Source of the DNA: a virus
Length of the DNA stretch: 25,021 nucleotides
IMG/VR virus record: IMGVR_UViG_3300023116_005055
Span: 1 to 25,021 of that record
Direction: 5' to 3' (one strand)
Both the position numbers and the translations under genes were made by a program. Position 1 is the stretch's first letter, and each line of letters begins with the position of its first letter. The notes under the pieces were generated by a model that was not told where the DNA came from, did no database searches, and saw only the letters and a list, made by a program, of their open reading frames with translations. Positions 1,316 to 21,603 of this stretch are shown here, in pieces.

Positions 1316-1675
1316 ATGACCCCCATCGGTATTCACGGTGAGAAGTCCTACCACCTGACGACCACCAAAACGCCCCGTGGCGGTATGTCCTACGCCCGCA
1401 TCAAGTTTGCCGACTGCGTCCACCACTACACCGTTTACAAGAACGGGGGGATGGAGGGCTACGGGTTTATCGTTGAAATCTATGACCTGAAGGGCAACCT
1501 CATCGCCTTTGGCGACGATCAGGATTTCATCGGCCAAGTGCGGCAGGGTCAAACCCTCCCCGCCACGAAGTCTTACGCCATCCAACACGCCCAGGGCATG
1601 GTTGAATATCACCTCAACGACGAGGAGATACCTCTCTGGACACCCAGCGGCTACACAATCGAGTGCAACCTGTGA
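1316..1675 (+). CDS. Hypothetical protein (119 aa)
   Basis: This 119-residue protein is not recognised. The ATG at 1316 follows the preceding stop by 6 bp, with the spacer GAGGAAAC acting as a ribosome-binding site. The sequence is rich in beta-strand formers and aromatics (HHYTVYKNGGMEGYGF, then IVEIYDLKGNLIAFGDDQDF) and gives the impression of a small beta-sandwich or barrel. No catalytic motif is visible. Its end overlaps the promoter element of the helicase gene that starts at 1702. Confidence 0.65.
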   Translation: MTPIGIHGEKSYHLTTTKTPRGGMSYARIKFADCVHHYTVYKNGGMEGYGFIVEIYDLKGNLIAFGDDQDFIGQVRQGQTLPATKSYAIQHAQGMVEYHLNDEEIPLWTPSGYTIECNL

Positions 1676-1686
1676 AAAGGGTGGGA
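1671..1686 (+). promoter_or_regulatory. GGGTGG-class promoter of the XPD-like helicase gene
   Basis: The sequence TGTGAAAAGGGTGGGA places GGGTGG at 1679, 23 bp before the ATG at 1702. The same core sits 23-24 bp before six other genes. The AT-rich box (GTGAAAA) is degenerate. The element overlaps the stop codon of the preceding gene. Confidence 0.45.
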
Positions 1687-1701
1687 TGACCACCTCAAGG
1701 C

Positions 1702-3441
1702 ATGGCGGTCGTCCGTATCAACATACCGTCAAAGGCTACGCTCCCAAATGAATGGGACGATATCCAGCCACACTTCCCAATGCCAGCCCCCCGCAAATAT
1801 CAAGACGACGCTTTGAGCGTGGCGTGGTGGGCGTTGAAGAATGACAACTTTGACAACATCGTGATCGAAGCACCCACGGGAATCGGCAAATCCGCCGTGG
1901 CCATGACCCTCCAGTCTCAGTTTCAATCAGCCTACCTCTTGACCCCCACGCTGGGGCTGACTGAGCAATACAAACGGGACTACGGACACGTCGTGGAAGA
2001 GGTTCGGGGGCGTAGCAACTTCCCATGCTGGATTCAGAGCGGATCGGCACACAACGCCCCCTGCTACAAGAACGGCAAGACGTGTCCCCACGCAAAGAAG
2101 GACGAGGACGACCCCTGCCCGTATTATGAGCAAAAGTGGGCTGGTCAAGACGCTCGCATAACGTTGAGCAACCCCGCCTACCTCTTCAGGGCTATCCAAT
2201 TTGACGAGGGCTGGGGTCAGCGTGACTTTGCTATCATCGATGAAGCACACAACCTGGAGCCGTTCTTCATGGGGTTGCTTGAAGTCAAACTAACCGAGGC
2301 GGACTTCACCGCCGTCTATGGTCCAAAGTCCATGCCCTTCATCCACGTCCCAAAGGATTGGGAAGAGCCTGTTCAAGAGTTGCTGGACGGTGCTATCAAG
2401 AGCCGTGATGAAGCAAAGAAAGAGCGGAACGAACAGGCTGAAGAGGCGTTCAATGGAATCGCCCAAAGGTGCTCGATGATGCTGACGTTGCTGGGCAAAC
2501 CCAATGACATGGTGATGACTCAAGAGAGCGACCGCTCTGGGCGGAGTTTGACGGGCAAGCCTGTGCGGGTCAGCCAATTTGCTGGTGAACGTCTGGAGCA
2601 AATATCCCGCCAGCGCATCATGCTCTCAGCGACGATCCTTGACATTGACACCTACCTCAAGTCCCTGGGGTTGGAGCACCAAAAGACCCTGTTCATTTGC
2701 ATCACGAAGTCCCCGTTCCCGCAGACCAATTTCAACATCCACTACGCGCCCTGCGGCCCTATGTCGTGGGCTAAACGCAAGCATAGCATCCCCCGTCAAG
2801 TCAAGGCGATTGCCGCCATCATGCGGAAGTGGCCTGAACGTCGAGGGGTTGTGTTGCCCCACACCCACGCCATACGAAAGGAAATCGTTGAAGGACTCAA
2901 GGCTGAGGGATTGGGCGACCGTGTCTTGACCCATGATTCAGACGGACGGGCGCGGGACTTGGTGCTTGATAGGTTCATGAAGTCGGGGAAACCAGGCGAG
3001 GTTCTCATCTCCACCTACGTTGGTGAAGGGTTTGACTTTGCGGGCGATCTGGCTCATTGGCTCGTATTGAGCAAAATACCCTACCTTTTCACGCCCGATC
3101 CGCAAATTGCCCAGCGCATGGAACAAGACGAGCATGAATGGAGGCGGGAGAATGAGGGGTCGCCAGCCTGTCCGTATGAACCGCCAAACAAATATAGCAA
3201 CGGGCTGTGCTCGTCCTTCTCATGCCCCAAGCCGTGTCAACGCTGGTATAACCTCCAGACGACGCTGAAGTTGGTGCAGGGTGCTGGACGTATTCACCGC
3301 CGCCCCGATGACGTGGGACACATCTTCATTCTCGACGGCTCATGGCAACGGTATTATCGCCAAAACGGGCATCTCCTCCCCTCTTGGTTCAGGGACAACA
3401 TCAGCGACCCGCCCAATTGGTTGAAGCGTCATATTGCTTAA
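1702..3441 (+). CDS. XPD/DinG-family iron-sulfur superfamily 2 DNA helicase
   Basis: The protein is 579 residues, close to archaeal XPD in size. Visible motifs are Walker A APTGIGKS (57-64), the four-cysteine Fe-S insertion C109, C121, C128, C139, the DEAH box IIDEAHNLE (178-186), MLSATI (307-312), a motif V-like region GEGFDFAGD (441-449) and motif VI QGAGRIHR (526-533). XPD-family proteins unwind DNA 5' to 3' using ATP, so a role in opening replication or repair intermediates is expected. A second cysteine set (C490, C503, C508, C512) lies between motifs V and VI, which I do not recall from standard XPD or DinG. The ATG at 1702 lies at the set distance from a GGGTGG element. The gene ends inside the TATA promoter of the next gene. 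Confidence 0.9.
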   Translation: MAVVRINIPSKATLPNEWDDIQPHFPMPAPRKYQDDALSVAWWALKNDNFDNIVIEAPTGIGKSAVAMTLQSQFQSAYLLTPTLGLTEQYKRDYGHVVEEVRGRSNFPCWIQSGSAHNAPCYKNGKTCPHAKKDEDDPCPYYEQKWAGQDARITLSNPAYLFRAIQFDEGWGQRDFAIIDEAHNLEPFFMGLLEVKLTEADFTAVYGPKSMPFIHVPKDWEEPVQELLDGAIKSRDEAKKERNEQAEEAFNGIAQRCSMMLTLLGKPNDMVMTQESDRSGRSLTGKPVRVSQFAGERLEQISRQRIMLSATILDIDTYLKSLGLEHQKTLFICITKSPFPQTNFNIHYAPCGPMSWAKRKHSIPRQVKAIAAIMRKWPERRGVVLPHTHAIRKEIVEGLKAEGLGDRVLTHDSDGRARDLVLDRFMKSGKPGEVLISTYVGEGFDFAGDLAHWLVLSKIPYLFTPDPQIAQRMEQDEHEWRRENEGSPACPYEPPNKYSNGLCSSFSCPKPCQRWYNLQTTLKLVQGAGRIHRRPDDVGHIFILDGSWQRYYRQNGHLLPSWFRDNISDPPNWLKRHIA

Positions 3442-3480
3442 TGGTTTAAGCAAACAAGGTGCGGGGTTTATATGCGGTGG
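3438..3480 (+). promoter_or_regulatory. TATA promoter (TTTATATG class) upstream of zinc-ribbon gene
   Basis: TTTATATG (3467-3474) is followed directly by CGGTGG. It lies 30 bp before the ATG at 3497, so a leaderless mRNA is predicted. The upstream part (AATGGTT at 3440-3446, then CAAGGTG) is a diverged copy of the block found before the MoxR (20220) and VWA (22640) genes. It overlaps the last codons of the helicase gene. Confidence 0.7.
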
Positions 3481-3496
3481 GGGTGTCGGGTCAGCC

Positions 3497-3673
3497 ATGA
3501 ACGAGCCACATCGTCATGCCCTGAAGCCCGCCGACCCGACCGCCCCGATTTTGGTTTGCCCCGTTTGTGAGAAAACCTTCTTTGAAATCGATTTGCCAAC
3601 CTTGACCGCCATTTGCTCTCTCGGTTGCGATTCCAGAGTCCAGATCGACACCATGCTTTTCACGGAGAATTGA
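3497..3673 (+). CDS. Small zinc-ribbon protein (58 aa)
   Basis: The start is the ATG at 3497, set by the TATA box 30 bp upstream; the frame is open back to 3434 but that segment would overlap the promoter. The 58-residue product has CPVC (C21, C24) and CSLGC (C40, C44), a classic zinc-ribbon arrangement with about 15 residues between knuckles. Small zinc ribbons of this kind often mediate nucleic-acid or protein contacts. The specific role here is unknown. It is the first of three successive zinc-binding proteins leading into the large ATPase gene at 5117. Confidence 0.7.
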   Translation: MNEPHRHALKPADPTAPILVCPVCEKTFFEIDLPTLTAICSLGCDSRVQIDTMLFTEN

Positions 3674-3675
3674 AC

Positions 3676-3753
3676 ATGGACGACAATAAGCACAACTTGA
3701 AAATCCGCATTGAAACGGACGAGTACATCTATTGGGAATATCTGGAGGCTTGA
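3676..3753 (+). CDS. Possible 25-residue micropeptide
   Basis: A 25-codon frame begins with ATG at 3676, 2 bp after the preceding stop, with GGAGAATT just upstream as a ribosome-binding site. It ends at 3753, and its last codons (tctggaggct) carry the GGAGG that serves the next gene. The peptide begins MDDNKHNLKIRIETDEY and is acidic and aromatic at its end. It may be a real small protein or only a translational-coupling leader. No family is recognised. Confidence 0.4.
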   Translation: MDDNKHNLKIRIETDEYIYWEYLEA

Positions 3754-3756
3754 AAA

Positions 3757-4839
3757 TTGAGCGGACTGTTGGCCCGTCAAGCGAGCAAATGGAAGGCTCA
3801 AGAAGGGCGCGGTGAATTGCCCGACGCTCTCTATGCCGCCCTGTCTGAAGGCCACGCCAGCGGCTACGAGCGTCGGATTATCCGCAACCTCGCCAGAGTT
3901 AGCCGCATTATCAACGACGACGGGACGATCCGTCCCTACGCCGTGTTCTCCCTCGATTGGGTCTATCGTCATTCTGTGTATGGTGAAGTCCAAAAGTGTC
4001 AACTGTGCGGCCACGAGCCCATCGTTGAAAACTGCGTCCTTGAGAACACCGAGAGCGGTGAGAGCATTTACATCGGCAACACGTGTGTGCTCCGCTACAT
4101 TGAGGTGCGGGACAAGAACGGCAACATCATGACCGCCCGTGAAAAGGCGGACTACCTCAAAGGTGAAATGGGCGAGGCCAAGACTGAGTTTCGCCGTCAG
4201 GACTTTGCGTCCCGCTTCCCGACCGCTATGCGTGACCTCGCCAAATACGAGCCCATGATGAAAGAGCGCAAAGCCCTCAAGACCCTACACGCAAAGGTGA
4301 TGAGCCGCATCGTGAAATACGGCTATCTTGGTCCCAAAATTGACGCTGAGTTTGCTCAATTCATGCTGACCGCCGAGGATGACTACAACGCATGGAGAGC
4401 GGACAACCAGCGGAGGTTGGAGGAACGCCAAGCCAGGAACGCCGCCACCGCCCTCAAGGTCGCCCAGATGAGAAATGAATGGGCAAAAGAAGCGGACGGC
4501 TGGATCGAGAGCGTCAACGATTTGACCCTCAACTCGTGGGAGCAGGGAATGGTTCAGCGTGTTGAACGCCACATCCGCAACCGTGGTCGAGCGTCCATCC
4601 GTCACGGCATGGCTCGATTTGTTGAAGAGATTGAAGCCCGTGTCAAGTTGGAGGACGGAGAGGCCAGCAACCCGTTGGCTCGTGAATTGCTTTCAATTGA
4701 CACACACCGCCTCAACGAATGGGAGCAGGGCTTTGTCACGTCCGTGGTCAGCCGTCTGGAATGCGGACGATCATTGTCAAAGGGTCAGCAGGCAGTTGTT
4801 GAAAAATTGAAAAAGAAGCACCTGCCTCATGCGTCTTGA
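3757..4839 (+). CDS. Hypothetical protein with N-terminal zinc-binding motif (360 aa)
   Basis: The start is TTG at 3757, supported by GGAGG at 3744-3748; no usable in-frame ATG occurs near the N-terminus. Residues 80-115 form a treble-clef-like motif: KCQLCGHEP (C81, C84), C93, and IYIGNTCVLRY (C110). The pattern 'CxxCG...GxxCVxxY' recurs in uncharacterised phage proteins. The remaining 240 residues are helical, charged and rich in Lys, Arg and Glu, with two similar segments near the end: LNSWEQGMVQRVERH and LNEWEQGFVTSVVSRL. These suggest an internal repeat of about 65 residues. The motif points to nucleic-acid or protein binding. The exact function is unknown. Confidence 0.75.
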   Translation: MSGLLARQASKWKAQEGRGELPDALYAALSEGHASGYERRIIRNLARVSRIINDDGTIRPYAVFSLDWVYRHSVYGEVQKCQLCGHEPIVENCVLENTESGESIYIGNTCVLRYIEVRDKNGNIMTAREKADYLKGEMGEAKTEFRRQDFASRFPTAMRDLAKYEPMMKERKALKTLHAKVMSRIVKYGYLGPKIDAEFAQFMLTAEDDYNAWRADNQRRLEERQARNAATALKVAQMRNEWAKEADGWIESVNDLTLNSWEQGMVQRVERHIRNRGRASIRHGMARFVEEIEARVKLEDGEASNPLARELLSIDTHRLNEWEQGFVTSVVSRLECGRSLSKGQQAVVEKLKKKHLPHAS

Positions 4840-5120
4840 TGTCTATGTTTGACTCGCCGCCGAGCAGGGTATTGACCCCCTCAACCCCTCAGCAACCGTC
4901 CAGAATGGCCGATGTCGTTGGGGTGGGGGTGTTGGAGCGTTGCCCCAATTGTCAACGCACAGGCCGCTTCACGGTGCTCATGCTTGCCCCTGGCGACATC
5001 TATCCAAACCAAGCCGTGATATGTGGCGAGGGTGGGTGTGGTGTGTTTTGGGCTTTAGGGCCAGCCCCACTTCAGTCACGCTTCTTTGATGAGGGTGGGC
5101 AGTCTGGGGTGAACCCATGA
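4839..5120 (+). CDS. Zinc-ribbon protein (93 aa)
   Basis: The ATG at 4839 overlaps the stop of the preceding gene by one base (TGATG), a sign of translational coupling; a TTG at 4836 and an ATG at 4845 are alternatives. Residues 35-38 are CPNC and residues 62-67 are CGEGGC, forming a zinc-ribbon-like site. The N-terminal 30 residues are Pro/Ser-rich and probably disordered. The gene overlaps the start of the ATPase gene by four bases (ATGA). It probably assists the replication ATPase or binds nucleic acid, but this is inferred from context only. Confidence 0.65.
   Translation: MSMFDSPPSRVLTPSTPQQPSRMADVVGVGVLERCPNCQRTGRFTVLMLAPGDIYPNQAVICGEGGCGVFWALGPAPLQSRFFDEGGQSGVNP
5085..5100 (+). promoter_or_regulatory. 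GGGTGG-class promoter inside the zinc-ribbon gene, for the ATPase at 5117
   Basis: TTTGATGAGGGTGGGC places GGGTGG at 5093, exactly 24 bp before the ATG at 5117. The AT box TTTGAT lies about 30 bp before the start. It lies inside the coding end of the preceding gene, so the ATPase could be transcribed both from the upstream operon and on its own. Confidence 0.6.
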
Positions 5121-7120
5121 CCGAGAAAATCGTGGTGCGTCAATCCACTGAAACCGCTTCAAAATACGAGGCCAGCGTTGGCGGCTACGACCTCGTCTTT
5201 GCCTTCTTGAAGTCCTCAAAGAACCGCATGGACTTCATGGTTGAGCACGACAACAAACCCCACGGAACGTATAACCTGCTCAGCCAGCATAGCATCAGCC
5301 GCCTGTGCAAATCGATGAAAGTCCCAGAGGATGAACGGGAGACGTTCAAGGTCGGCGTGTTGCAGGTCGGCGTTTCTTTGCGGGACGGTGAATACGAGCC
5401 TGCGCCAATTGTGGATCGACGGGTCGCTGAGAAGGAGGACTACAACGGCAAGATGTCCAGCCGTGGGGCTATTGACACCAATATCATCACTGACTTTCTG
5501 GGCGATCAGCACCTGCTTGACTCCGTGAACGAGGTGCTTCATGGGTCAAGGGGTGTCCCGTTTGTTGGTGATGATGCCAACCTTCTGCTCACCTTCTTGG
5601 TTATGCTCTCATGCAAAACCGACCAACCCCTCAACCTGGAAATGGTCGGCCAATCCGCAAGCGGCAAGACCTACATGACACTGACCGCTCGCAACGGCTT
5701 CCCGAAGTCAATGTGCATGGTGCTGGCTGGTGCATCACGTGAGGCTCTGAAATACGACTACGATGAAATCGACGACGACGGCAACTTCATCGTCCATGTG
5801 GACGGGCGTTGTATCGTCATTCTTGAGAAGGATGAGTCCGAGGCGTTTATCCGCAAAATGAAGCCGCTGATGAGCGGTGACGATAAGGAGTTGGTCTGGA
5901 AAACGCCCATCAAAAACGACCTCACGGGGGAGATTGAAACACGGGACTTCATCATCAAAGGCCAGCCGTCCTTCATCACGCTGACCACCCGCAACCCCAG
6001 AGAGGCGGAGCAAATCACACGTCAACTGCTCATGACCCCAGACACCACCAGCGACAAGGTGGAGGCGGTCGTCGGCAACGCCCTGCAAGCCAAAGCGCGC
6101 CCCGATGAGATGCTGGTTCACCCCGATGTGGATTTGCTTCAAGCATCCATGCTCAACCTCAAGCAATACCGCATACGCAACATCTTCGCCCCGCTCATGG
6201 TGGACTTCTTCCCAGCCCGCAACGCTCAACACCAACGTGACATCAACAAAGTGCTGTCCATCATTGACTCCGTGACGTTGCTTCACCAAAAGCAACGGCC
6301 TGTGCAACGTGTGGGCGACCGTGAATACCTCATGGCGTCGATTGAGGACAACATCATCGGCCTCATTCTATGCGACCTCGTGTTGCGGGCAAGCCTCAGC
6401 GGTATTCCCGACGACTCATGGATCGTGTTCAGCGAGTTGCAGTCAATGGAAGAAGCAAACCGCCCGCTGACGGAGGACAATATCCTTCAGTGGCTCAACA
6501 TCCACGCCTTTTCATGTTCAAAGAACGCCCTCAAGGAGAAGCACCTGCCAACGTTGGAGGATGCTGGGTTGATTGAGTTGGCACGACGTGGTGGCGGACG
6601 TGGAGGCGGTCGCAAATCATGGAGAATCGTCAAGACCCGACAAGGGCTGATGGAGACCTATGCCCTCGCCCCGCTCTTTGTTGAAGCGGCCAGGAACAAC
6701 CTGCCGACCATTCTCGATGAGTTTAGAGGCGTTATTGACTCCTGTATTGCCCCAGAACGTTGCAGACGTTTGGATCGGGGCGAGCGTGAATTGCTCCAGC
6801 GTCTTGGTTGCTCAAGCAAAACCGCCAGCATGACCTATCGCTCGTTGTTGTTGGGGTCATACCTTCACAACACGGGGCGGGATGGGGTGTTGTTCAACAT
6901 TGTTGGCGACGTTCCTTCCCGTGATTCTTTGTTTGCACGTGTCCCAGCGTGGCTCAATGAAGAGATAGAAGGACGAGCCACCCAAACCCTCGCCAAGAAA
7001 CGCAAAGCCGCTGAGAAGGTCAAAGAGGCAACCCGCATCGCCGCAGTCGGTGATAACGCCGACGACCTTTGGAACGCTCTGGCTGAAGCCCACCTCTTTG
7101 ATGATGATTCTTCTTTATGA
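5117..7120 (+). CDS. P-loop (AAA+-like) ATPase, candidate replicative helicase
   Basis: The protein is 667 residues. Walker A is GQSASGKT (178-185), a Walker B-like strand is IVILEKDE (233-240), and a sensor-1/arginine region SFITLTTRNPREAEQ lies at 285-299. The N-terminal 170 residues carry no recognised motif. The C-terminal 300 residues are helical with a winged-helix-like stretch around LPTLEDAGLIELARRGGG, a Gly/Arg loop and a Lys-rich tail. The layout resembles AAA+ ATPases of archaeal mobile elements that are thought to act as replicative helicases. No MCM or DnaB is seen in the window, which supports this role, but it stays an inference. The ATG at 5117 overlaps the previous stop by four bases and has a GGGTGG element 24 bp upstream. 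It ends just before the promoter of the SSB-like gene. Confidence 0.65.
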   Translation: MTEKIVVRQSTETASKYEASVGGYDLVFAFLKSSKNRMDFMVEHDNKPHGTYNLLSQHSISRLCKSMKVPEDERETFKVGVLQVGVSLRDGEYEPAPIVDRRVAEKEDYNGKMSSRGAIDTNIITDFLGDQHLLDSVNEVLHGSRGVPFVGDDANLLLTFLVMLSCKTDQPLNLEMVGQSASGKTYMTLTARNGFPKSMCMVLAGASREALKYDYDEIDDDGNFIVHVDGRCIVILEKDESEAFIRKMKPLMSGDDKELVWKTPIKNDLTGEIETRDFIIKGQPSFITLTTRNPREAEQITRQLLMTPDTTSDKVEAVVGNALQAKARPDEMLVHPDVDLLQASMLNLKQYRIRNIFAPLMVDFFPARNAQHQRDINKVLSIIDSVTLLHQKQRPVQRVGDREYLMASIEDNIIGLILCDLVLRASLSGIPDDSWIVFSELQSMEEANRPLTEDNILQWLNIHAFSCSKNALKEKHLPTLEDAGLIELARRGGGRGGGRKSWRIVKTRQGLMETYALAPLFVEAARNNLPTILDEFRGVIDSCIAPERCRRLDRGERELLQRLGCSSKTASMTYRSLLLGSYLHNTGRDGVLFNIVGDVPSRDSLFARVPAWLNEEIEGRATQTLAKKRKAAEKVKEATRIAAVGDNADDLWNALAEAHLFDDDSSL

Positions 7121-7129
7121 GGGTGGGGG
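7114..7129 (+). promoter_or_regulatory. GGGTGG-class promoter of the SSB-like gene
   Basis: TTTATGAGGGTGGGGG overlaps the stop codon of the ATPase gene. The GGGTGG at 7121 predicts transcription starting near 7145, giving a short leader with AAAAGGAG (7147-7154) before the ATG at 7164. Unlike most members of this class, the mRNA would therefore have a ribosome-binding site. This fits strong expression of an SSB. Confidence 0.6.
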
Positions 7130-7163
7130 ATTTCTGGGGAGTCTGCAAAAGGAGACAACACCT

Positions 7164-8465: not shown

Positions 8466-8495
8466 ACCCAGCCCACCCAATCTGAACCGCACCCC

Positions 8496-8509
8496 TCATA
8501 ACCGTGGGA
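8496..8509 (+). promoter_or_regulatory. Weak GGGTGG-class promoter for the RecA-like gene
   Basis: TCATAACCGTGGGA is a diverged match. CCGTGG begins at 8502, 23 bp before the ATG at 8525, the same position as the core in better matches. Confidence 0.35.
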
Positions 8510-8524
8510 TATCAAGGTGAGACC

Positions 8525-9415: not shown

Positions 9416-9420
9416 TCGTG

Positions 9421-10644: not shown

Positions 10645-10687
10645 CCGCAGGGTTCAAAGGCAGTGAAGTCCACGGGCATAACAACCA

Positions 10688-11110: not shown

Positions 11111-11140
11111 TTGATACATCAAAGCATTGATATAGGGAAA
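11111..11140 (+). promoter_or_regulatory. Tandem TTGATA promoter of orphan gene 11167
   Basis: TTGATA begins at 11111 and again at 11127, 16 bp apart. The downstream copy is CATTGATATAGG, followed by GAAACCTGCTGG as at 816-828. The distance to the ATG at 11167 (about 36 bp) allows a leader of about 10 nt. Confidence 0.6.
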
Positions 11141-11166
11141 CCTGCTGGGAGGATTGAGGCAGACCA

Positions 11167-11620: not shown

Positions 11621-11640
11621 CCCTCTTTATGAGGGTGGGG
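11621..11640 (+). promoter_or_regulatory. GGGTGG-class promoter of the PCNA-like gene
   Basis: TTTATGAGGGTGGGG at 11626-11640 has GGGTGG at 11633, 24 bp before the ATG at 11657. CCCTC (11621-11625) could pair with GAGGG (11631-11635) around TTTAT, placing the box in a small hairpin. Confidence 0.65.
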
Positions 11641-12475: not shown

Positions 12476-12480
12476 GCGTC

Positions 12481-12708: not shown

Positions 12709-12717
12709 GGGGGGCGT

Positions 12718-13896: not shown

Positions 13897-14746
13897 GTCA
13901 AAGACAAAGCGCAACCTGTTGGACGATGAGATGACGATCAGGGAGCGAGCGGGTGGCCCGTTGGGTCAGCGGTTCTCGTTGTTGCGGGCTATCCTTGAAG
14001 AGTTGGAAGGGGGCTGGGATGACGTATTCCCCATGAGGGCTGACCTCTTCACCCCCGAATACATCAAGACCAAAGAAGCCGCCCAGCAGGTTGCGCTGGA
14101 CATTATCGGGGAAATGCTTCATCGACAAAAGCGGGTAGACCATCGAGAGCACATCAAAATGCTGGACTACCTCAGCGATCTGGGCTTTGAGGTTGTTCAC
14201 CTTCACACGGGGGAGGGTGATGTAGCCAGCCGCCGTGTCAGCATTGAACGCAAAGAGGACGACCTCATCTCCAGCCTGTTTGACGACCGCCGCTTGCGTC
14301 AGTTGGGGGCTATGCGTGAAGAAGCCGAGCACTCCTTCTTGATTGTCACGAAGTCCTTTGAAATGGTCCGCAGGGATGCTCAAAAGCGTGGCCTGTCCGT
14401 CCGCACCTTGATTGGCTACATCGCCAGCCTGTGTGCCGTGGGGTATCCCCCATTGTTCATCGCAAACAAAACCGAGGCGGCTACGTTGATGAGCAGGATC
14501 GTGAACAAAATTGAGGATGACGTGCCACGGGTCTATGTGCCGCGCCCCAAAGCCCCAGAGCCTCAAGAATACCGAAACGCCATCATAGAAGCCCTCCCTG
14601 GAATTGGACTCAAGACCCGCCGCCTTCTCGTTGAAGAGTTTGGCTCGTTGGCTGGTCTTTGTTCAGCCTCCCCAGAGGACATCGCTGGGGTCAAGGGAAT
14701 AGGTCAAGCAACCGCCGACCGTGTCCATGAGATTCTTCATTCTTGA
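13886..14746 (+). CDS. XPF/Mus81/Hef-family structure-specific nuclease
   Basis: The ATG at 13886 has GGAGG at 13874-13878 and lies within the end of the primase gene. The 286-residue protein has an N-terminal basic segment, then an ERCC4-type nuclease core: GD at 111-112, IERKEDDLISSL (120-131), and a central helical part. The C-terminal 50 residues form tandem helix-hairpin-helix motifs: ALPGIGLKTRRLLVEEFG and then IAGVKGIGQATADRV. Family members cut branched DNA such as flaps and forks, usually with PCNA. The core motif has only two residues between ERK and the following Asp, instead of the usual three. There is no helicase domain, so it resembles the short archaeal XPF form. Confidence 0.88.
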   Translation: MARRSKTKRNLLDDEMTIRERAGGPLGQRFSLLRAILEELEGGWDDVFPMRADLFTPEYIKTKEAAQQVALDIIGEMLHRQKRVDHREHIKMLDYLSDLGFEVVHLHTGEGDVASRRVSIERKEDDLISSLFDDRRLRQLGAMREEAEHSFLIVTKSFEMVRRDAQKRGLSVRTLIGYIASLCAVGYPPLFIANKTEAATLMSRIVNKIEDDVPRVYVPRPKAPEPQEYRNAIIEALPGIGLKTRRLLVEEFGSLAGLCSASPEDIAGVKGIGQATADRVHEILHS

Positions 14747-14750
14747 TAAA
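14743..14750 (+). promoter_or_regulatory. TATA-like box for the FkbM gene
   Basis: TTGATAAA overlaps the stop of the XPF-like gene and is centred about 26 bp before the ATG at 14773. The position fits a leaderless promoter. It has a single box, not the 16-bp tandem. Confidence 0.4.
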
Positions 14751-14772
14751 CCGCCAACCGTGACGGCTGACC

Positions 14773-15444
14773 ATGACAGGCGGAGCATATCGTCAATTTT
14801 TGAAAGACCTCCCAGGCTTGGATTCAGTGAAGGTTGCTCTTGAATTGGGTTCAAGGGATGCAAAAGACGCTGTGTGGTTGGCCGACCACTTTGGTTGCGA
14901 GGTCATCACGTGGGAAGCAAACCCGCCATCGATTGAGGTTTGTGAGTTTGTGATCGGCAACCGAGAGGACATAACGCTGGTCCCGTTTGCCGCATGGTCT
15001 GAAAACACCACCATCCCGTTCTATCCCGTCATCAACGGCAACGTGGGCGCGTCGTCGGCCTTCAAAGCAGACCCCACTTATCCCCACGAGCGTCGGTATC
15101 AGCAAAAGCAAATCGAGGTCAACGCCCTACGAGTTGAGGATTGGTGGAGCAACCGCCCAGCCCCAGAATTGCTGTGCATGGATTTGCAGGGAGCGGAGTT
15201 GGAGGCGTTGAAGGGTTGCGGCGAATTGCTTGACAACGTGGAGGTGATCGTGACGGAGGGGCAATACAGACCTCTATATCACGACACGCCGCTCCTGGCA
15301 GACCTTCAGGCGTTTCTTGAAGAGCACGACTTTCACATGGTGACGGGCAAACGTGTGAACGATTGGTTTGGCGATTTCCTCTTTGTCAAAGGTCGAGCGT
15401 GGGCGATTGCTTTGGAATCACACTTTCACCCCTCTCCATATTGA
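14773..15444 (+). CDS. FkbM-family SAM-dependent methyltransferase
   Basis: The 223-residue product has the FkbM signature. VALELGSRDAKDAVWLADHF near residues 21-40 is the SAM-binding glycine loop, EVITWEANPPS (43-53) carries the acidic ribose-binding residue, and LLCMDLQGAELEALKGC (133-149) is the family's 'DxxGxExxxLxG' motif. FkbM enzymes O-methylate small molecules, sugars or glycans. A virus could use one to modify its own or the host's surface glycans; the target cannot be read from the sequence. It sits between repair and clamp-loader genes with its own TATA-like box, so it looks like cargo rather than replication machinery. No signal peptide is present. Confidence 0.8.
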   Translation: MTGGAYRQFLKDLPGLDSVKVALELGSRDAKDAVWLADHFGCEVITWEANPPSIEVCEFVIGNREDITLVPFAAWSENTTIPFYPVINGNVGASSAFKADPTYPHERRYQQKQIEVNALRVEDWWSNRPAPELLCMDLQGAELEALKGCGELLDNVEVIVTEGQYRPLYHDTPLLADLQAFLEEHDFHMVTGKRVNDWFGDFLFVKGRAWAIALESHFHPSPY

Positions 15445-15470
15445 GATAACAAAGCATTGATATAGAGGAA
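15441..15470 (+). promoter_or_regulatory. Tandem TTGATA promoter of orphan gene 15486
   Basis: TTGAGA at 15441 and TTGATA at 15457 are 16 bp apart. CAAAGCATTGATATAG (15450-15465) is identical to the copy at 11120-11135. The downstream box lies 25 bp before the ATG at 15486, as expected for leaderless initiation. Confidence 0.65.
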
Positions 15471-15485
15471 ACGCTTCGTCCCGAC

Positions 15486-15716
15486 ATGAGCCGATACCTT
15501 TCCGAGATGGATATTCCTGAAAACTACGAATTCAGAGGCTACGATTACCACTTGTGGAAAGCCTACACCGAAGAAGGTATGGCTCGCATTGAAGCATCAG
15601 GCGTCCGATCTGGCTACGCCGAGCGAATGTATGGCGTTAACCGAGCCTGCGTCAAGCGTTGGACGATTGACGGCGTTGAGGTTTGGTGCGTCTACGCTCG
15701 CTATTGCTCTTGGTGA
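15486..15716 (+). CDS. Small orphan protein (76 aa)
   Basis: Unrecognised. The ATG at 15486 is fixed by the TTGATATAG box about 25 bp upstream. The product is rich in Tyr and Trp (FRGYDYHLWKAYTEEG, then VEVWCVYARYCSW at the end) and has an Arg-containing centre. There is no metal-binding cysteine pattern or membrane helix. It is a single-gene unit between the methyltransferase and RFC genes, with the same promoter type as orphan genes 836 and 11167. Its size and position are typical of viral accessory proteins. Confidence 0.6.
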   Translation: MSRYLSEMDIPENYEFRGYDYHLWKAYTEEGMARIEASGVRSGYAERMYGVNRACVKRWTIDGVEVWCVYARYCSW

Positions 15717-15731
15717 ATGTTGAGCCTCAAC

Positions 15732-15764
15732 CATTGAAGAGGGTGGGGCAGACAGTCCACCCTC
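15732..15764 (+). promoter_or_regulatory. GGGTGG-class promoter with palindrome, RFC small subunit gene
   Basis: CATTGAAGAGGGTGGGG has GGGTGG at 15741, 24 bp before the ATG at 15765. GAGGGTGG (15739-15746) is repeated inverted as CCACCCTC (15757-15764), which ends right at the start codon. The palindrome has a 10-nt centre and could be an operator or an RNA hairpin. Confidence 0.65.
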
Positions 15765-16787
15765 ATGCTCTGGGCTGAATCATACCGACCGCAAACGCTG
15801 GACGATGTCATTGGACAGGACCACATCACAAAGCGGCTACGCTACATGGTGGAAGAGTTGCATCGCACAGGCAACGATGCTGGCTTCCCCCACCTCATGT
15901 TTGCTGGCCCTGCGGGAACGGGCAAGACGGCCACCGCCGTGGCTCTCATGCGTTCTATGTTTGGGGATGATTGGAAGGCCAACTTCATTGAAATGAACGC
16001 CAGCGACGAGCGGTCGATTGGCGTTGTCCGCACTAAGGTCAAGGAGTTTGCTCGCCGTGGCGTGGTTGGGACATACCTTGCGGGGGAGACGATCCGCCCC
16101 ATCCCGTTCAATGTGGTTTTTCTGGATGAATGCGACCAACTGACCCCCGACGCTCAAGGTGCTCTCCGCCGTATCATGGAGCAATATTCCAAGCAGACCC
16201 GCTTCATTCTATCGTGCAATTATCCGCATCGGCTCATAGACCCCGTTAAAGACCGCTGTGCGTTCTCCGACACACGATTCCGCCCCATCAGCCCAGCCAC
16301 CGTTTACGACGCTCTGGTGAACGTTGTGGAGCGTGAAAACCTCAACATCCAAGAGGATGCCGTTGAAGCGATTGGCGAGTTGTGTCGTGGCTCAATGCGG
16401 AAGGCGTTGAACATCCTCTTTGCCGCCACACGTGTGCCAACCGCCGCAACCGTTGACGATGTCAAGGATGTCGTGAGCGAACTCGACCCCAAAGCCAGGA
16501 CACGTCTGCTGGCGACGGTCATGCGAGCCAACTCATCGACGGACGAGAAGGAATACACGAGCCTGTATCGCCGTGTAGACCGTATGGTTGAGGAATTGGG
16601 CGAGCAGGGTTTCAGCGGAGCGGACGTGCTGGACTCAATCTATCGTGCCGCCTCGGAGGATGACAAAATGCCGCTGACGTTGAAGCGTTCAATTTTCAAG
16701 GGAGTCGGTGAGGCTCTTTATCACGCCAGCGTGACCCAAGACGACCTGCTGACGGTCAAGACATTTCTGCGGGGGCTTGAGGTTTGA
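15765..16787 (+). CDS. rfcS: Replication factor C small subunit (clamp loader ATPase)
   Basis: The 340-residue protein matches archaeal RFC small subunits in length and order. The start LWAESYRPQTLDDVIGQ is the RFC-box I type. Walker A is GPAGTGKT (48-55), NASDERSIGVVR (78-89) is the RFC box after it, Walker B is VVFLDECD (117-124) and sensor 1 is LSCNYPHRLI (149-158). The family's arginine-finger box SRC is DRC here (163-165), keeping Arg164 and Cys165. Sensor 2 is GSMRKALNIL. The subunit forms the ATP-driven loader for the PCNA-like clamp encoded at 11657, with the RFC-large-like protein at 21704 as partner. The stop overlaps the TTG start of the next gene. Confidence 0.95.
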   Translation: MLWAESYRPQTLDDVIGQDHITKRLRYMVEELHRTGNDAGFPHLMFAGPAGTGKTATAVALMRSMFGDDWKANFIEMNASDERSIGVVRTKVKEFARRGVVGTYLAGETIRPIPFNVVFLDECDQLTPDAQGALRRIMEQYSKQTRFILSCNYPHRLIDPVKDRCAFSDTRFRPISPATVYDALVNVVERENLNIQEDAVEAIGELCRGSMRKALNILFAATRVPTAATVDDVKDVVSELDPKARTRLLATVMRANSSTDEKEYTSLYRRVDRMVEELGEQGFSGADVLDSIYRAASEDDKMPLTLKRSIFKGVGEALYHASVTQDDLLTVKTFLRGLEV

Positions 16788-17143
16788 CCGATCCGCTGAC
16801 CCTTGACGACAACCCAGCCCTGCTTGAAATCCTACGAGAGCGGCTGGCGTTGGGTGCAGAACGCTACGGTCACGGGCTACGATCAGGAGATGACACGACC
16901 CAATGGGGAACGAAAGAGGATTCATGGGCTGAAATGGGGCTGGAAGAAATCCTGGACATGACGATTTATCTGGCCTGCGCCCTTCTCCGTGTCCGTCGAT
17001 TTGAGGCTGAGGCCGCTGAGAAGTTGAGGGACGCTGAAATTGCCCTAAAGCAGGCCGAGACGATGAGAAGTCAAGCCTTCACGGGCGTTAAAGAGGGTGG
17101 GGACACGTGGCTGAAACGATGGTTCAAAAGACCCCGCTCTTGA
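16784..17143 (+). CDS. Putative MazG-like nucleotide pyrophosphohydrolase
   Basis: The start is TTG at 16784, sharing bases with the RFC stop (TTTGA). The 119-residue product has an N-terminal helical part with LALGAERYGHGLR and SWAEMGLEEILDMTIYLACALL, which resemble the EExxE...D helices of phage MazG-like proteins and the 'AEKYG' motif of related enzymes. Such enzymes hydrolyse dNTPs or other NTPs. The last 50 residues are a likely coiled coil and a Trp/Lys-rich end. The metal-binding residues are not all clear, so an inactive relative is possible. The end overlaps the first 25 bases of the polymerase gene and carries that gene's promoter. Confidence 0.4.
   Translation: MTDPLTLDDNPALLEILRERLALGAERYGHGLRSGDDTTQWGTKEDSWAEMGLEEILDMTIYLACALLRVRRFEAEAAEKLRDAEIALKQAETMRSQAFTGVKEGGDTWLKRWFKRPRS
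17088..17102 (+). promoter_or_regulatory. GGGTGG-class promoter of the DNA polymerase gene
   Basis: TTAAAGAGGGTGGGG lies within the preceding coding region. Its GGGTGG at 17095 is exactly 24 bp before the ATG at 17119. This spacing supports that ATG as the polymerase start. Confidence 0.65.
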
Positions 17144-19770
17144 TTGTTGGTGTGACCTATCAAGACGACCCGTTGGTCACCAAACTACGGGTGAAGAACC
17201 TCAAGGGTGAAGCGTTCAACATTGAAGTCACGGGCATCCAGCCACGGTTTTGGACGGAGAAGAACCCAGCGGGGATGCAACTCCCAGAGCAGGTGAAGTC
17301 CGCCAAACCCTCTCGGTTCAAGTCAATCACAGGCACACCGCTCTTTGAAATCCGTGTGGACAAACCCTCCGATATCCGTGAAGTGAGGGACTTCTTCTAT
17401 CCCCACTATTGTGCTGACGTTCCGTGGGCGACCTTTGTCCGCTGGATCGCAGGCTGGACAGCCGTTATTGAAGCCAATACCGCCCTCCTCAACACGTCCA
17501 GGAGGTTCAGGCCAAAGGACATCACACCGTCCGAGGTGGAGGTTGGGTTGTTCAAGTTGGACACGATGTATTTTGACATTGAAACGGAGGATTGGCTGGA
17601 CGTTGATGACCCACAGGGGCGGATAGTCAGCATCGCCGTCTATGACGACAAGACCGACCGCCACATCGTTGCGACCACGGCTCATACGTCCGAGCGTCAA
17701 GTCCGCCGCTTCTTATCCTCTCAAGACGCTCTCCACTCCGTTGTTGAGCATGACAACGACATCCCGCCGCTCGACGCTGACAAAATCCACGTCGTGAACA
17801 TTGAGGGCGCGGATGAGAACGAGCGTGAAGCGGCTTTGATGTGGTGGTTCAAGCACACGATTGAGCAATTCAACCCAGATGTGATCGCCGCACACAACGG
17901 GAGGGACTACGATATCCCGTATTGCCGCAACCGTTGTCGCCTTCAAAACAAAGCCATGCGGAGGGAATACGGAGATAACGTCCCCGTGTTTCACCGATAC
18001 CCACGCCTGTTTGAAGCCCGCCGCCCTCTCCGCCCCCACTTTGACACCAAGATGGCCTACGCCGAGCAGGTTCAAGGGGCGGCATTGACAACGGGGCAGT
18101 CGTCTTTGGCGTGGATGGGTGGGGCAACGTTGGGCTACGGCAAAGTGCCGAGAACATCCATCGTTGACATGATGAAGAACGACCCCATGATGCTGGCCGT
18201 TTACAACATCTGGGACAACGTGGTCGCCGCACGATCCATGCAGAAACTTGACCTCGTGGGCTTTTACACCTTCAAGACGGCCTGGCACAACTCCACGCTA
18301 CACAACGCCCACAGCAATATGATGCTGGTTGAGGACATGATGGGGCATTTGCTCTGGGAGCGTGATACCGTCATGCCCTCTTTGGACGTAGTGCGAGAAC
18401 GGTTGCCGACCAGCGGCATTGAGCAGGGCGGGTTTGTCATGGATGCACCCACGGGCGTTTGGCTCAACGCTATGGAGTTGGACAATTCAAAGGAATACCC
18501 CTCCGCCATCATCAGCGGCAACCTTGACCCAGCAACCAAAGTGAACCCAGCGGATTATCCAGACGGCTTCCCCTTCCCCGTGGCTACAACTCCATCGGGG
18601 CGCGTATATCGACAAGACTTTGAAGGCTTGATGCCCAGCATTCTGCGCTACCTCGCAACCAACCGTGACATCGTGCGGGCTGAGATGGGCGAGGCTGAAC
18701 GTGCGGGCAACTACGACGAAGCGGAACGGCTCAACAAAAAGCAACGGGTCATGAAGGAGAATATGAACAGTTGGTATGGGGTGTTGGGTTCTGGGCGGAC
18801 TGAAAAGACCCGTGGCCGTCCGTTCCGTTTGGCCGACCCTGAAATTGGGAGCGACATCACGGAGATAGCACGTGTTCACAACAATTGGAACAAGGAATGG
18901 ATCGAGCGGGTCGGCGTCGATTTCACCGTTGGCGAGGGTGCTCAAGGATTGAGATTTGAAAACATTGATAAACCCCCAGCCCATGTCGGCATGGTTCTCC
19001 GCTTCAAGACCATCTACCAAGACACGGACTCGTGCAAGGTCAGCATCATCAATCAGCCCCCAGATATGACACCAGCACAGGTGGCGACCGTTGCCCACCT
19101 TCTATGTGATGGGCTGAACGAGTCCTTCCATGAGTTTGTTCAAACGACGCTGGGCATTCCTAAGAATGAGTTTTTTGAAATCAAGCCCGACGCTTTCTAT
19201 GCTCGATATTTCCAATGGGGCGTGAAGAAGCGGTATGCCTACGTTGACTATGACGGCAAGTTTGGCTACCGTGGCGTGGAGATGCGACGATCCTCAACGC
19301 CGCCAGCCGTCAAGACGTTTCAGCAGTCCCTCTTTGATTGCATTCTGGGCGGTGGTGAACGTGGCGATATCAACGCCCTCGTCCGCAGGCTGAAGGATGA
19401 AATGCTGTCCGATGCTTTCACCGATGCTGACTTCGGCCAACCCCACGGCATCAAGAAGCCAGGAACGATGGCTCATCGAGCCGCCATGTGGAGCAACGCC
19501 AACCTTGACACGCACTTTGAGTTGGGCGACAAGCCTGTGATATACACGGCTCAATCAACCCCCAACGGGTTGCCAGCGAACCGCATGGTCGCTCTTGAAT
19601 GGGGTGAGAACCCAGCCGACTGGGGCGTGGTTGTGGATCGTGAAGCCAGCATCACCCGCCTCTTTGCTAACTCCAACTCCTTCGCCGCCATTTTGGGCGC
19701 GTTCAAAACGTCATGGGAGCGGGCGTTGGCGGGCATGGGGCAGGCTGACATGGGAGACTGGTTTGCTTGA
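17119..19770 (+). CDS. polB: Family B DNA polymerase with proofreading exonuclease
   Basis: The 883-residue product uses the ATG at 17119 (a GTG at 17107 is in frame), chosen by the promoter spacing. Exonuclease motifs are YFDIETE (151-157, D153 and E155), NGRDYDIPY (260-268, D265) and YNIWD (362-366). Polymerase motif A is LDNSKEYPS (454-462, D455), motif B is KENMNSWYG (546-554) and motif C is YQDTDS (633-638, D635 and D637). The thumb region has KKRYAYVDY (703-711) and RGVEMRRSS. All catalytic residues are present, so both synthesis and 3'-5' proofreading should be active. There is no protein-priming insertion, which fits RNA/DNA-primed synthesis by the AEP primase and clamp. Motifs A and C are not interrupted by an intein. 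Confidence 0.97.
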   Translation: MVQKTPLLIVGVTYQDDPLVTKLRVKNLKGEAFNIEVTGIQPRFWTEKNPAGMQLPEQVKSAKPSRFKSITGTPLFEIRVDKPSDIREVRDFFYPHYCADVPWATFVRWIAGWTAVIEANTALLNTSRRFRPKDITPSEVEVGLFKLDTMYFDIETEDWLDVDDPQGRIVSIAVYDDKTDRHIVATTAHTSERQVRRFLSSQDALHSVVEHDNDIPPLDADKIHVVNIEGADENEREAALMWWFKHTIEQFNPDVIAAHNGRDYDIPYCRNRCRLQNKAMRREYGDNVPVFHRYPRLFEARRPLRPHFDTKMAYAEQVQGAALTTGQSSLAWMGGATLGYGKVPRTSIVDMMKNDPMMLAVYNIWDNVVAARSMQKLDLVGFYTFKTAWHNSTLHNAHSNMMLVEDMMGHLLWERDTVMPSLDVVRERLPTSGIEQGGFVMDAPTGVWLNAMELDNSKEYPSAIISGNLDPATKVNPADYPDGFPFPVATTPSGRVYRQDFEGLMPSILRYLATNRDIVRAEMGEAERAGNYDEAERLNKKQRVMKENMNSWYGVLGSGRTEKTRGRPFRLADPEIGSDITEIARVHNNWNKEWIERVGVDFTVGEGAQGLRFENIDKPPAHVGMVLRFKTIYQDTDSCKVSIINQPPDMTPAQVATVAHLLCDGLNESFHEFVQTTLGIPKNEFFEIKPDAFYARYFQWGVKKRYAYVDYDGKFGYRGVEMRRSSTPPAVKTFQQSLFDCILGGGERGDINALVRRLKDEMLSDAFTDADFGQPHGIKKPGTMAHRAAMWSNANLDTHFELGDKPVIYTAQSTPNGLPANRMVALEWGENPADWGVVVDREASITRLFANSNSFAAILGAFKTSWERALAGMGQADMGDWFA

Positions 19771-20216
19771 CCCAGACCAGCAAATACACGCTGGCGTATC
19801 GATTGCTGAGAGGCAACTGCGGGCTGACCCACTTTGAAGTCCGCCATATCCTCAAAACACACTACGGGCCGCTGGCTCTCCACGAGAACCTGCTCAAACG
19901 TGAAGCAAAGCGAGAGCGGGATGAATTGAGCACCGTGATCGAAGCGACCGCTTTGTTGGCAAACCACGCCGAGCCAGAAGAGGCCGCTCAGCGGTTGCGT
20001 AGGCTGATTGAAGAGGACGACAACCTTGACTACCTCATTTGCCGCCAAGCCGCCAAGCAAATCCGAGCCTGGCACCCAGATTGGGGTGAAGCCGAGCGTC
20101 AATCAATGGAGAAGGTGCTGGCGTGGTTGCGGGTGAAAGAGCAACGACGCGCCCTCCGTGAATGGAAGAAGCGCAACCTGCTGACGTATCTGCGGGTTCA
20201 AGGTTTAGACCTCTAA
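19767..20216 (+). CDS. Helical basic hypothetical protein (149 aa)
   Basis: The start is TTG at 19767, overlapping the polymerase stop (TTGA), with GGGAG about 10 bp upstream. The product is almost wholly helical and charged: KREAKRERDELSTVI in the middle and VKEQRRALREWKKRNLL near the end. No domain is recognised. Coupling to the polymerase gene suggests a replication-associated accessory, but nothing in the sequence shows this. A short inverted repeat covers its stop codon. Confidence 0.6.
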   Translation: MTQTSKYTLAYRLLRGNCGLTHFEVRHILKTHYGPLALHENLLKREAKRERDELSTVIEATALLANHAEPEEAAQRLRRLIEEDDNLDYLICRQAAKQIRAWHPDWGEAERQSMEKVLAWLRVKEQRRALREWKKRNLLTYLRVQGLDL

Positions 20217-20219
20217 ACT

Positions 20220-20257
20220 CTCAATGGTTCATGCTTTCAATGTGTTGGGTTTATATG
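20220..20257 (+). promoter_or_regulatory. TATA promoter (TTTATATG class) of the MoxR gene
   Basis: TTTATATG lies at 20250-20257, after CTCAATGGTTC and TTTCAATGTGTTGGG. This 38-bp block differs at only two positions from 22640-22677. TCAATG recurs 16 bp apart (20221 and 20237). The start codon is 82 bp from the TATA box, so an mRNA leader of about 55 nt with GGAGATGA (20318-20325) is expected. Confidence 0.8.
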
Positions 20258-20317
20258 GTGTGACTTGCTGGCGTAGGATAACCCCACAGGAACAGGGGCA
20301 ACAAAACACAACAAAAA

Positions 20318-20325
20318 GGAGATGA
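20318..20325 (+). promoter_or_regulatory. Ribosome-binding site of the MoxR gene
   Basis: GGAGATGA matches the archaeal consensus GGAGGTGA at 7 of 8 bases and lies 6 bp before the ATG at 20332. An in-frame ATG at 20338 is less well placed. It is among the few genes here with both a leader and a strong site. Confidence 0.65.
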
Positions 20326-20331
20326 AGAAAA

Positions 20332-21510
20332 ATGGGAATGATTGAAAATATGAGAGACGCAGTTGAAATGGCTGGCGGTCGCATGAGCGAGGAGGCATAC
20401 CTCCGAGACGTGCAAACGCTAATCGAGAAGGACGGGGGCAACACCAGCCTTGAGAGCCTACGAGCAAACGCCTTCGCAAAGCGACGCATGGTCCCCGCAG
20501 GGGTCATGCGTGTCACCATTGGCGACACCAAAGAAGTCTGGCTACAAGAAAAGGCTGAAGAAATCCTGAGCGGGACGCTCTCTGGAATGCCTCAAGCCAC
20601 CAAAATTGAAATGGACTACCACACGGGAGAAGGAGCATACAACGGCATCGCCGTCCGTGGCGTTGACGAATTCCCTCAGCACCTTCACGCCAACATTTAC
20701 CGACCAGGCTCGGTCATGTTTGAAGAAACCAGCAAGGGCGAGATGCGCTTGATGAGCATCGCCTACCGCACAGGCCACCACATCATGTTCACGGGGCCAA
20801 AAGGTTGCGGCAAAACGATGGCCGTCAAAGCCTTCGCCAGCCACATTGGTCTGCCCGTTCTCCGTGTCAATTGCTCGGAGGGCATCACCGAAGACCAGTT
20901 TATTGGCTACCGCACCATCGTCGACGGCGAGGTTGTTTGGATTGACGGCCTTTTGCCTATCGCCATGCGCCACGGTTGCCTTTTGCTTTTGGATGAGTTT
21001 AACGGAGCACGAGCCGAGATTCTGATCGCTCTCAACAGTGTCGGAGACAGCGGCACGTTGCTCCTTCCGCTCAACAACAACGAGGTCATCAAGGCACACC
21101 CGTCCTTCCGCATGGTTGCGACCATGAACCCCGTTGACGGCTACGAAGGCGTTCAGCAGGTCAATCAAGCAACGAAAGACCGCTTCGCCCTTCAACTCGA
21201 CTTTGATTATCTGGAAGCCGACAAGGAGATTAGCGTCATCCAAAAGGTCAGCGGCATCACCAACCCACCGCTCGCCCGTGAATTGGTGGCCCTCGCCAAC
21301 GACCTCCGCCGTCTCCGCCGAGACCACACGCTGGAGTCCGACACCTCGACCCGCACCCTCATTCAAATGATGGAGATGAGCGGCGACCTCAACGTCACCG
21401 AGTTGGTTGACTACATCATGGTCGGCAAATACGAAGCCCATGAAGCCGAGGATGTCCGCATGGCCGCACGAGCCCGCCTCTCCGCCTACGGTGCAGTCCC
21501 GTCCGCTTGA
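20332..21510 (+). CDS. MoxR-type AAA+ ATPase (CbbQ/NorQ/CobS-like)
   Basis: The 392-residue product has an N-terminal 140-residue region without a motif, then a MoxR-type AAA+ core. Walker A is GPKGCGKT (155-162), Walker B is LLLLDEFNGA (217-226), sensor 1 is MVATMNPVDG (261-270), the pre-sensor strand is QATKDRF (279-285) with an arginine-finger Arg, and the lid region contains TRTLIQMMEM. MoxR proteins remodel or activate partners together with a VWA protein, and the protein at 22699 is the likely partner. Homologues in phages are often named CobS after a cobalt chelatase subunit, but no chelatase gene lies here. The promoter, the leader and the ribosome-binding site suggest good expression. 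Confidence 0.88.
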   Translation: MGMIENMRDAVEMAGGRMSEEAYLRDVQTLIEKDGGNTSLESLRANAFAKRRMVPAGVMRVTIGDTKEVWLQEKAEEILSGTLSGMPQATKIEMDYHTGEGAYNGIAVRGVDEFPQHLHANIYRPGSVMFEETSKGEMRLMSIAYRTGHHIMFTGPKGCGKTMAVKAFASHIGLPVLRVNCSEGITEDQFIGYRTIVDGEVVWIDGLLPIAMRHGCLLLLDEFNGARAEILIALNSVGDSGTLLLPLNNNEVIKAHPSFRMVATMNPVDGYEGVQQVNQATKDRFALQLDFDYLEADKEISVIQKVSGITNPPLARELVALANDLRRLRRDHTLESDTSTRTLIQMMEMSGDLNVTELVDYIMVGKYEAHEAEDVRMAARARLSAYGAVPSA

Positions 21511-21603
21511 TGCTCTCTGGGGCAGGTTGTTCCACGGTGGCGGGGGTGCTTGCCCCACGCATTCCCAACCCCCGCCACCACCCTCTCATTGAAGAGGGTG
21601 GGG
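21511..21603 (+). terminator. Hairpin region and promoter between MoxR and coiled-coil genes
   Basis: A perfect 12-bp stem GGTGGCGGGGGT (21536-21547) pairs with ACCCCCGCCACC (21568-21579) around a 20-nt loop. A second 9-bp stem pairs CCACCCTCT (21578-21586) with AGAGGGTGG (21593-21601). The second contains the GGGTGG element itself. The first may end the MoxR transcript. The two stems share bases 21578-21579 and so can compete. Confidence 0.5.
21588..21603 (+). promoter_or_regulatory. GGGTGG-class promoter of the coiled-coil gene
   Basis: ATTGAAGAGGGTGGGG has GGGTGG at 21596, 23 bp before the ATG at 21619. The sequence CATTGAAGAGGGTGGGG is the same as at the RFC promoter. Confidence 0.6.

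Follow-up and report, generated by a model that had tools for sequence, protein, structure and literature searches.

How a virus of uncultured archaea marks the genes of its replication module for transcription is the question raised by the IMG/VR virus record IMGVR_UViG_3300023116_005055. This 25,021-bp stretch, referred to as a whole as the window, was analyzed with 28 gene starts considered, and the hexamer GGGTGG lies at a fixed short distance upstream of the start codons of several of its replication genes. Almost nothing is known about transcription in viruses of uncultured marine archaea. In this work we show that the true element is a TATA-like box joined to GGTGGG, that it forms, within a set of three or four promoter classes, the class of the replication module, and that it is specific to one clade. 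We propose that it is a class-specific archaeal core promoter of replication genes which works on the host TBP, TFB and RNA polymerase, with a reader of GGTGGG that would be encoded or redirected by the virus, in a clade of uncultured, presumably marine, tailed archaeal viruses with a replication module like that of magroviruses and Druskaviridae; for this explanation taken as a whole we estimate a probability of about 0.72.

The original prediction, made from the letters of the window, had placed GGGTGG 23 or 24 bp upstream of a set of start codons, and exact copies are found at these distances before the genes that start at 1702, 5117, 11657, 15765, 17119 and 21619. These are 6 of the 28 gene starts, where 0.038 would be expected from the 17 copies present on the plus strand (Poisson tail 4e-12). 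None of the other 866 ATGs of the window, on both strands, has the hexamer at that distance, and when the gene map was shifted circularly 20,000 times the count reached 3 at most. The enrichment at a fixed distance before start codons, which had been proposed as a test, is borne out by these counts. The bare hexamer shows only a mild excess in the window (29 copies against 20.3, a number reached in 3 of 100 shuffles); the signal is therefore positional, and the bare count was dropped as evidence.

In the complete element, here called class 1, the first G of the predicted hexamer is variable (A, G or C) and GGTGGG follows the box. On the plus strand of the window it is found at 1671-1686 (box TGTGAAAA followed by GGGTGGG, 15.3 bits with the position matrix; TTSATTAAGGTGGG in the orthologues), upstream of the gene for a DEAD_2/XPD-like helicase (ATG 1702); at 5085-5100 (CTTTGATGA-GGGTGGG, 16.3 bits; orthologues with TTCATAAGGGTGGG or TTGATAACGGTGGG), upstream of a conserved P-loop ATPase gene (ATG 5117); at 11625-11640 (CTTTATGA-GGGTGGG, 20.7 bits), upstream of the PCNA gene (ATG 11657); at 15733-15748 (ATTGAAGA-GGGTGGG, 17.3 bits), upstream of the gene for the RFC small subunit (ATG 15765); at 17087-17102 (GTTAAAGA-GGGTGGG, 14.9 bits), upstream of the gene for DNA polymerase B (PolB, ATG 17119); and at 21588-21603 (ATTGAAGA-GGGTGGG, 17.3 bits), upstream of a small gene (21619-21777), a site that is kept in the close relative L006. 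The copy of the SSB-like gene is displaced, as had been described: GGGTGG lies at -43 of ATG 7164, with AAGGAG between the two. The matrix site (7113-7128, CTTTATGA-GGGTGGG, 20.7 bits) ends 35 nt from this ATG, so a leadered transcript is predicted, and the AAGGAG (7149-7154, plus strand), a putative ribosome-binding site, is kept in a relative that is 85-94% identical. The site of the RecA-like gene (ATG 8525) had been called weak, and this call of a weak but real site was right, because the near match CTCATAACC-GTGGG at 8495-8508 (plus strand) stands where the orthologues carry TTGATATAGGTGTG or TTCATATAGGTGG; the mixture model presented below labels it class 1.

Searches of IMG/VR with PolB and the helicase recovered about 40 related stretches, nearly all at 52-100% identity, in contigs of up to 82 kb. 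Upstream of the orthologous replication genes these carry TT(T/C/G)ATA(A/T)n-GGTGGG, followed by about 15-16 nt to the ATG. The first base of GGTGG is at -23 or -22 in 63 of 747 gene starts taken from 14 contigs, against about 1 expected per offset. It had also been suggested that a position matrix be built from the sites and used to scan relatives; a leave-one-genome-out matrix gave 148 matches against 13 in a reversed-sequence control, and 116 of the 148 have an ATG 14-17 nt downstream, compared with about 2 per position elsewhere. Ten contigs that were outside the training of the matrix gave 57 matches (control, 0), 44 of them with an ATG at the predicted distance. The conservation of the element was evaluated in 165 diverged orthologous pairs, less than 80% identical over the region. 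In these pairs the GGTGGG columns are 0.80-1.00 identical (0.97-1.00 for GGTG), and most box columns 0.5-1.0, reaching 100% at the second T and at the first A, while the flanks are at 0.2-0.4; such conservation amid randomised flanks is the trace of selection that acts on the element itself but not on the adjacent DNA.

The element is restricted to this group of viruses. The pattern ATAWVGGTGGGN{14,17}ATG gives about 98 matches in 21 of 25 virus records (1.07 Mb, some of the records being near-duplicates), on one strand per record, and 0 in the control. In a blind scan of the 2.9 million viral contigs of IMG/VR with TTCATAAGGGTGGGN{14,17}ATG, 25 stretches were obtained and 22 of them carry genes of the clade, which means that the element alone singles out the clade; a second pattern, TTATATAGGTGGG, was discarded since it is too short and its matches are mixed with chance ones. 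HCTV-5, a relative from the Druskaviridae with a PolB about 25% identical, is without the element, its single off-position match being equal to the control.

The motif had been described as virus-wide, and this did not hold: many genes have no site, and other classes with other post-box sequences occur, also in the window. A mixture model of the upstream regions, in which classes were assigned without reference to gene function, separated four groups that have a common box position and differ just 3' of the box: C1, corresponding to class 1 (GGTGGG, 78 genes), C2 (AnCGTnA(A/T)(A/T)AACC, 76), C3 (CATTnATAAGGGGGAAC, 29) and C4 (TnATATASSSnnnaCCC, 45); C3 and C4 may be one group rather than two. 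Comparison with gene function showed that GGTGGG goes with replication genes, AACC with virion genes, and GGGG(G)AAC or SSnnnaCCC with small and anti-restriction genes. Family scans found clamp loader, helicase, PolB, nuclease and methyltransferase in C1, where none of the 25 families listed is a virion family; in C2 they found portal, S78 protease, capsid, terminase, head-tail adaptor and tail; and in C3/C4 mostly small proteins of unknown function together with CobT-VWA, DUF6011, polynucleotide kinase/zeta and ArdC anti-restriction. Considering the members that have a class, C1 is the main class in seven orthologue groups read as replication (clamp loader, helicase, PolB, SSB-like, RecA-like, PCNA and nuclease) and C2 in the seven groups with a virion annotation (capsid, adaptor, portal, terminase, protease and two tail groups), one nuclease and one MoxR member in C2 being the exceptions; the chance of this split is about 3e-4 when orthologue groups are treated as independent. 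The same class is shared by 288 of 305 orthologue pairs, whereas shuffles gave a mean of 120 and a maximum of 156.

The geometry of these promoters suggests where transcription begins. The second T of the box is at -30/-29 in 67 of the 78 class 1 sites and at the same place in class 2, and classes 3 and 4 are within 1-2 nt. A pyrimidine stands at -1 in 97% of the class 1 genes and in 86-90% of those of the other classes, versus 41% of the unclassified genes; transcripts of class members are therefore probably leaderless and start at the A of the ATG. At displaced class 1 sites a ribosome-binding site is present in most cases (ssb, moxR and others). These sequence features support the original interpretation, in which the promoter is of archaeal type, its TATA-like box is weak and transcription would begin at the ATG, about 26 bp further on; also supported is its remark that a G-rich element immediately 3' of the box does not belong to the standard archaeal features. 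To our knowledge, the additional elements of archaeal promoters are the upstream B recognition element (BRE) and the -10 region, and they do not include a conserved G-rich block adjoining the box on its 3' side. No purine-rich BRE was found directly upstream of the class 1 box, where the columns are at background identity (0.2-0.38). The leaderless core promoters of haloarchaea and Poseidoniaceae resemble the viral ones in having the box centred about 26-27 bp before the ATG and a pyrimidine at -1; in contrast to them, the viral class has the conserved G-rich block directly after the box.

The core-promoter model starts from the observed geometry, the conservation, the link between class and function and the absence of the element from Poseidoniales genomes. 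In this model, the TBP of the host would bind the weak TT(T/C/G)A(A/T)(A/G/T)(A/T) box, and the host TFB and RNA polymerase would begin transcription about 26 bp further on, with the A of the ATG as the first base, so that the mRNAs would be leaderless; when the promoter lies further upstream, a ribosome-binding site would precede the ATG. GGTGGG (approximately -22 to -17) would act as a class-specific contact that sets the timing or the strength with which the class is used, and its reader would most likely be a virus-encoded early protein or a virus-redirected TFB, at the position of the downstream BRE (BREd). The virion genes and the small early-type genes would use the same geometry with the other post-box sequences (AACC; GGGG(G)AAC or SSnnnaCCC). 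Several genes of the viruses L217 and L219 have exactly TTCAAGA as their box, with GGTGGG unchanged, so that box and GGTGGG behave as separate modules; judging from these sequences, the box would follow the host-type factor and the G-block the virus. A broader proposal, which we hold only tentatively and consider clearly less than evenly probable, is a post-TATA code in which the 4-8 bases directly 3' of the box select one of three temporal programmes (first small/anti-defence, then replication, then virion), their readers being TFB-level factors that the virus supplies or redirects and that act at the BREd position; the temporal order of the classes is hypothetical. If true, infection would be ordered without a new RNA polymerase or sigma factor, which has not been described for archaea.

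Several points weigh against the core-promoter model. No relative of PolB was found in 319 Poseidoniales genomes; the class of CobT, a glycosyltransferase, the PD-(D/E)XK nuclease and MoxR varies between viruses; and a simple test for ribosome-binding sites separates class 1 (19%) weakly from the other genes (25%). In addition, genes and starts were obtained with a simple open reading frame caller and several contigs are near-duplicates; this caller misplaces some starts (for instance that of PolB in the window), and in consequence the C1 count is lowered.

The element could instead be a feature of the host lineage, that is, host promoters would carry GGTGGG after the box and the virus would have copied them, as the original prediction had allowed. 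A Poseidoniales host is suggested by the gene content, according to the account of Magrovirales and Druskaviridae by the International Committee on Taxonomy of Viruses (ICTV; PMC10768690), by the presumed marine origin and by the similarity of the box. Gene starts of Poseidoniaceae (L152-L161, L167-L171 and L184-L191) have a leaderless-type box, TT(C/G)A(A/T)(G/A), near -29, with C at -1; this is possibly the first description of their core promoter. The viral box matches it (TTCAAGA, as found exactly in L217 and L219, and TTGATA), and a few Poseidoniaceae starts have GGTGG near -22 (7 versus 3.1). However, the columns after the Poseidoniaceae box carry almost no information, the ATAWVGGTGGGN{14,17}ATG pattern is at chance level in 194 Poseidoniales genomes (31 matches against about 29 in the reversed control), and in 390 Thermoplasmatota genomes it shows neither enrichment nor any genome with a concentration of matches. 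A host-lineage origin is thus disfavoured; it is largely refuted if the host belongs to the Poseidoniales, would survive only with another host lineage that carries GGTGGG, and is on the whole improbable. Still further down in probability, to the point of being barely credible, is a signal at the level of the mRNA, with GGTGGG in the 5' untranslated region assisting ribosome recruitment. A G-rich sequence at a fixed distance from the ATG would be suited to this role, but GGTGGG is always joined to the TATA-like box, at larger distances from the ATG the box-GGTGGG unit remains intact and a separate ribosome-binding site mostly appears, the pyrimidine at -1 points to a start at the ATG, and a distance of 17 nt exceeds the reach of a Shine-Dalgarno contact.

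Two other explanations concern the reader of GGTGGG. The one that requires no viral factor is an archaeal BREd, bound directly by one of the two TFBs of Poseidoniales, so that general factors would choose the class. Most of the Poseidoniales genomes checked (G021-G032) have two TFB genes, a canonical one of about 311 aa and a divergent one of about 350 aa; GGTGGG is immediately 3' of the box, class 1 lacks conserved upstream BRE columns, and at least 6 of the 7 letters of RTDKKKK, the consensus of the eukaryotic downstream TFIIB recognition element (PMC2864573), are matched by 59 of the 78 sites (16 in full and 43 with one mismatch, with a 1-bp offset). This consensus is very degenerate, however, and host genes do not use GGTGGG, which would be odd for the site of a general factor; we view direct recognition by TFB as rather unlikely. 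The eukaryotic and the viral elements are alike in being G/T-rich and directly 3' of the TATA box, with a GTGGG core that for the most part fits the degenerate RTDKKKK, and differ in that the viral one has an invariant extra G before GTGGG, is strictly conserved and belongs to archaeal viruses. A TBP or TFB encoded by the virus was also considered and rejected, given that none was found with Pfam in 16-20 virus records; other relatives may differ in this respect, as a TFB is reported for Aoguangviridae in the ICTV account. The second explanation is a viral DNA-binding regulator, activator or repressor, and we give it appreciable weight, somewhat short of even odds. The candidate is a conserved protein of about 160 aa, for which a winged helix and a ribbon-helix-helix (RHH)-like C-terminus are predicted, present in 7 of the larger contigs (for example L045:3188-3670 and L059:19107-19589, both on the minus strand, L050:6905-7375 and L071:2884-3360) and itself under a class 1 promoter in three. 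Its structural model (pLDDT 82) has three helices, a two-strand wing and two C-terminal helices, it gives weak winged-helix matches, and RHH regulators are typical of archaeal viruses (PMC5569661). Against it, the fold matches have E values of 0.01 or worse, the RHH part was recognised by eye, and the link between the candidate and GGTGGG is hypothetical.

Archaeal viruses are thought to rely on the RNA polymerase of the host, and the nearest precedent for the viral element is the GTC trinucleotide located downstream of the TATA box in the rudiviruses SIRV1 and SIRV2, which was proposed as a virus-specific element (Kessler et al. 2004, reviewed in PMC5569661). Both are short virus-specific elements just downstream of TATA in systems that use, or in our case would use, the host TBP, TFB and RNA polymerase; the SIRV element differs in sequence, realm and host and is reported for the majority of SIRV promoters; GGTGGG, by contrast, is the mark of a single functional class, and the other classes have post-box sequences of their own. 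The classes also recall the early, middle and late promoters of tailed phages, since promoter class tracks function (replication versus virion); here, in contrast, there is no known sigma factor or phage RNA polymerase, and the letters that define the class stand at one place of the core promoter. No description of promoters of magroviruses or Poseidoniales viruses was found in the literature searched, a mention in PMC5434244 or PMC11706807 being possible. The element permits the annotation of start codons, operons and gene classes from sequence alone, and the claim that archaeal viruses sort their gene classes by a few bases beside the TATA box is testable.

The window carries an archaeal-type replication module that includes, besides the DEAD_2/XPD-like helicase, the P-loop ATPase, SSB-like and RecA-like proteins, a PD-(D/E)XK nuclease, PCNA, the RFC small subunit, PolB, a MoxR-like AAA protein and a CobT-type VWA protein. 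This content corresponds to a tailed virus, related to Druskaviridae, with its own replisome of the PolB, RFC and PCNA type. PCNA was confirmed by a fold search after sequence search had failed; the names SSB and RecA-like come from the first reading of the sequence and from motifs only, and no useful match came from searches of solved structures with the SSB-like, RecA-like and ATPase proteins or with the winged-helix candidate. Between 4839 and 5117 the window encodes a small, conserved and zinc-ribbon-like protein, which has two pairs of Cys (CPNC...CGEGGCG) and no Pfam match.

Other promoter sites were also noted in the window, all on the plus strand. Two copies of CGGTGG after TTTATATG, noted from the start at 3475 and 22678, are indeed present: the one at 3467-3480, a strong TATA box with CGGTGG at -22 of ATG 3497, reads as a hybrid of class 1 and class 4, and the one at 22670-22683, with CGGTGG at -21 of ATG 22699 of the CobT/VWA gene, is class 4 in the mixture model and has TTTATATGGTGTGG and TTAATATAGGTGGTG in relatives. 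About 80 bp upstream of the MoxR-like AAA gene (ATG 20332, with AAGGAG at its start) lies TTTATATGGTGTG (20250-20262); in relatives, TTATATAGGTGGG precedes moxR by about 40 bp and is accompanied by a ribosome-binding site. A long upstream repeat, CAATGGTTCxTGxTTTCAATGTGTTGGGTTTATATG, is common to the MoxR and VWA genes and reaches beyond the box (20222-20262 and 22641-22683). A class 2 promoter, TTGATAAACC (14740-14755, 12.4 bits, mixture label C2), precedes the gene for an FkbM methyltransferase (ATG 14773); in this class (this site and those of L047, L053, L059, L063, L069 and others), unlike in the GGTGGG class, bases upstream of the box are conserved too. That class 2 might have been copied from a host 'ACC' promoter was considered and is not claimed, because the excess in Poseidoniaceae is weak (33 versus 25). 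Class 3 promoters are found at 802-821 (AACCATTGATAAAGGAGAAC, 21.0 bits, gene 836) and 11122-11141 (AAGCATTGATATAGGGAAAC, 21.2 bits, gene 11167), and sequence comparison points to a class 3-like promoter at 15452-15471 (AAGCATTGATATAGAGGAAA, gene 15486). This third class, CATTGATATAGGGGGAAC, which is also seen in L045, L049 and L071, precedes small unknown genes, often with a duplicated CATTGATA-type box upstream.

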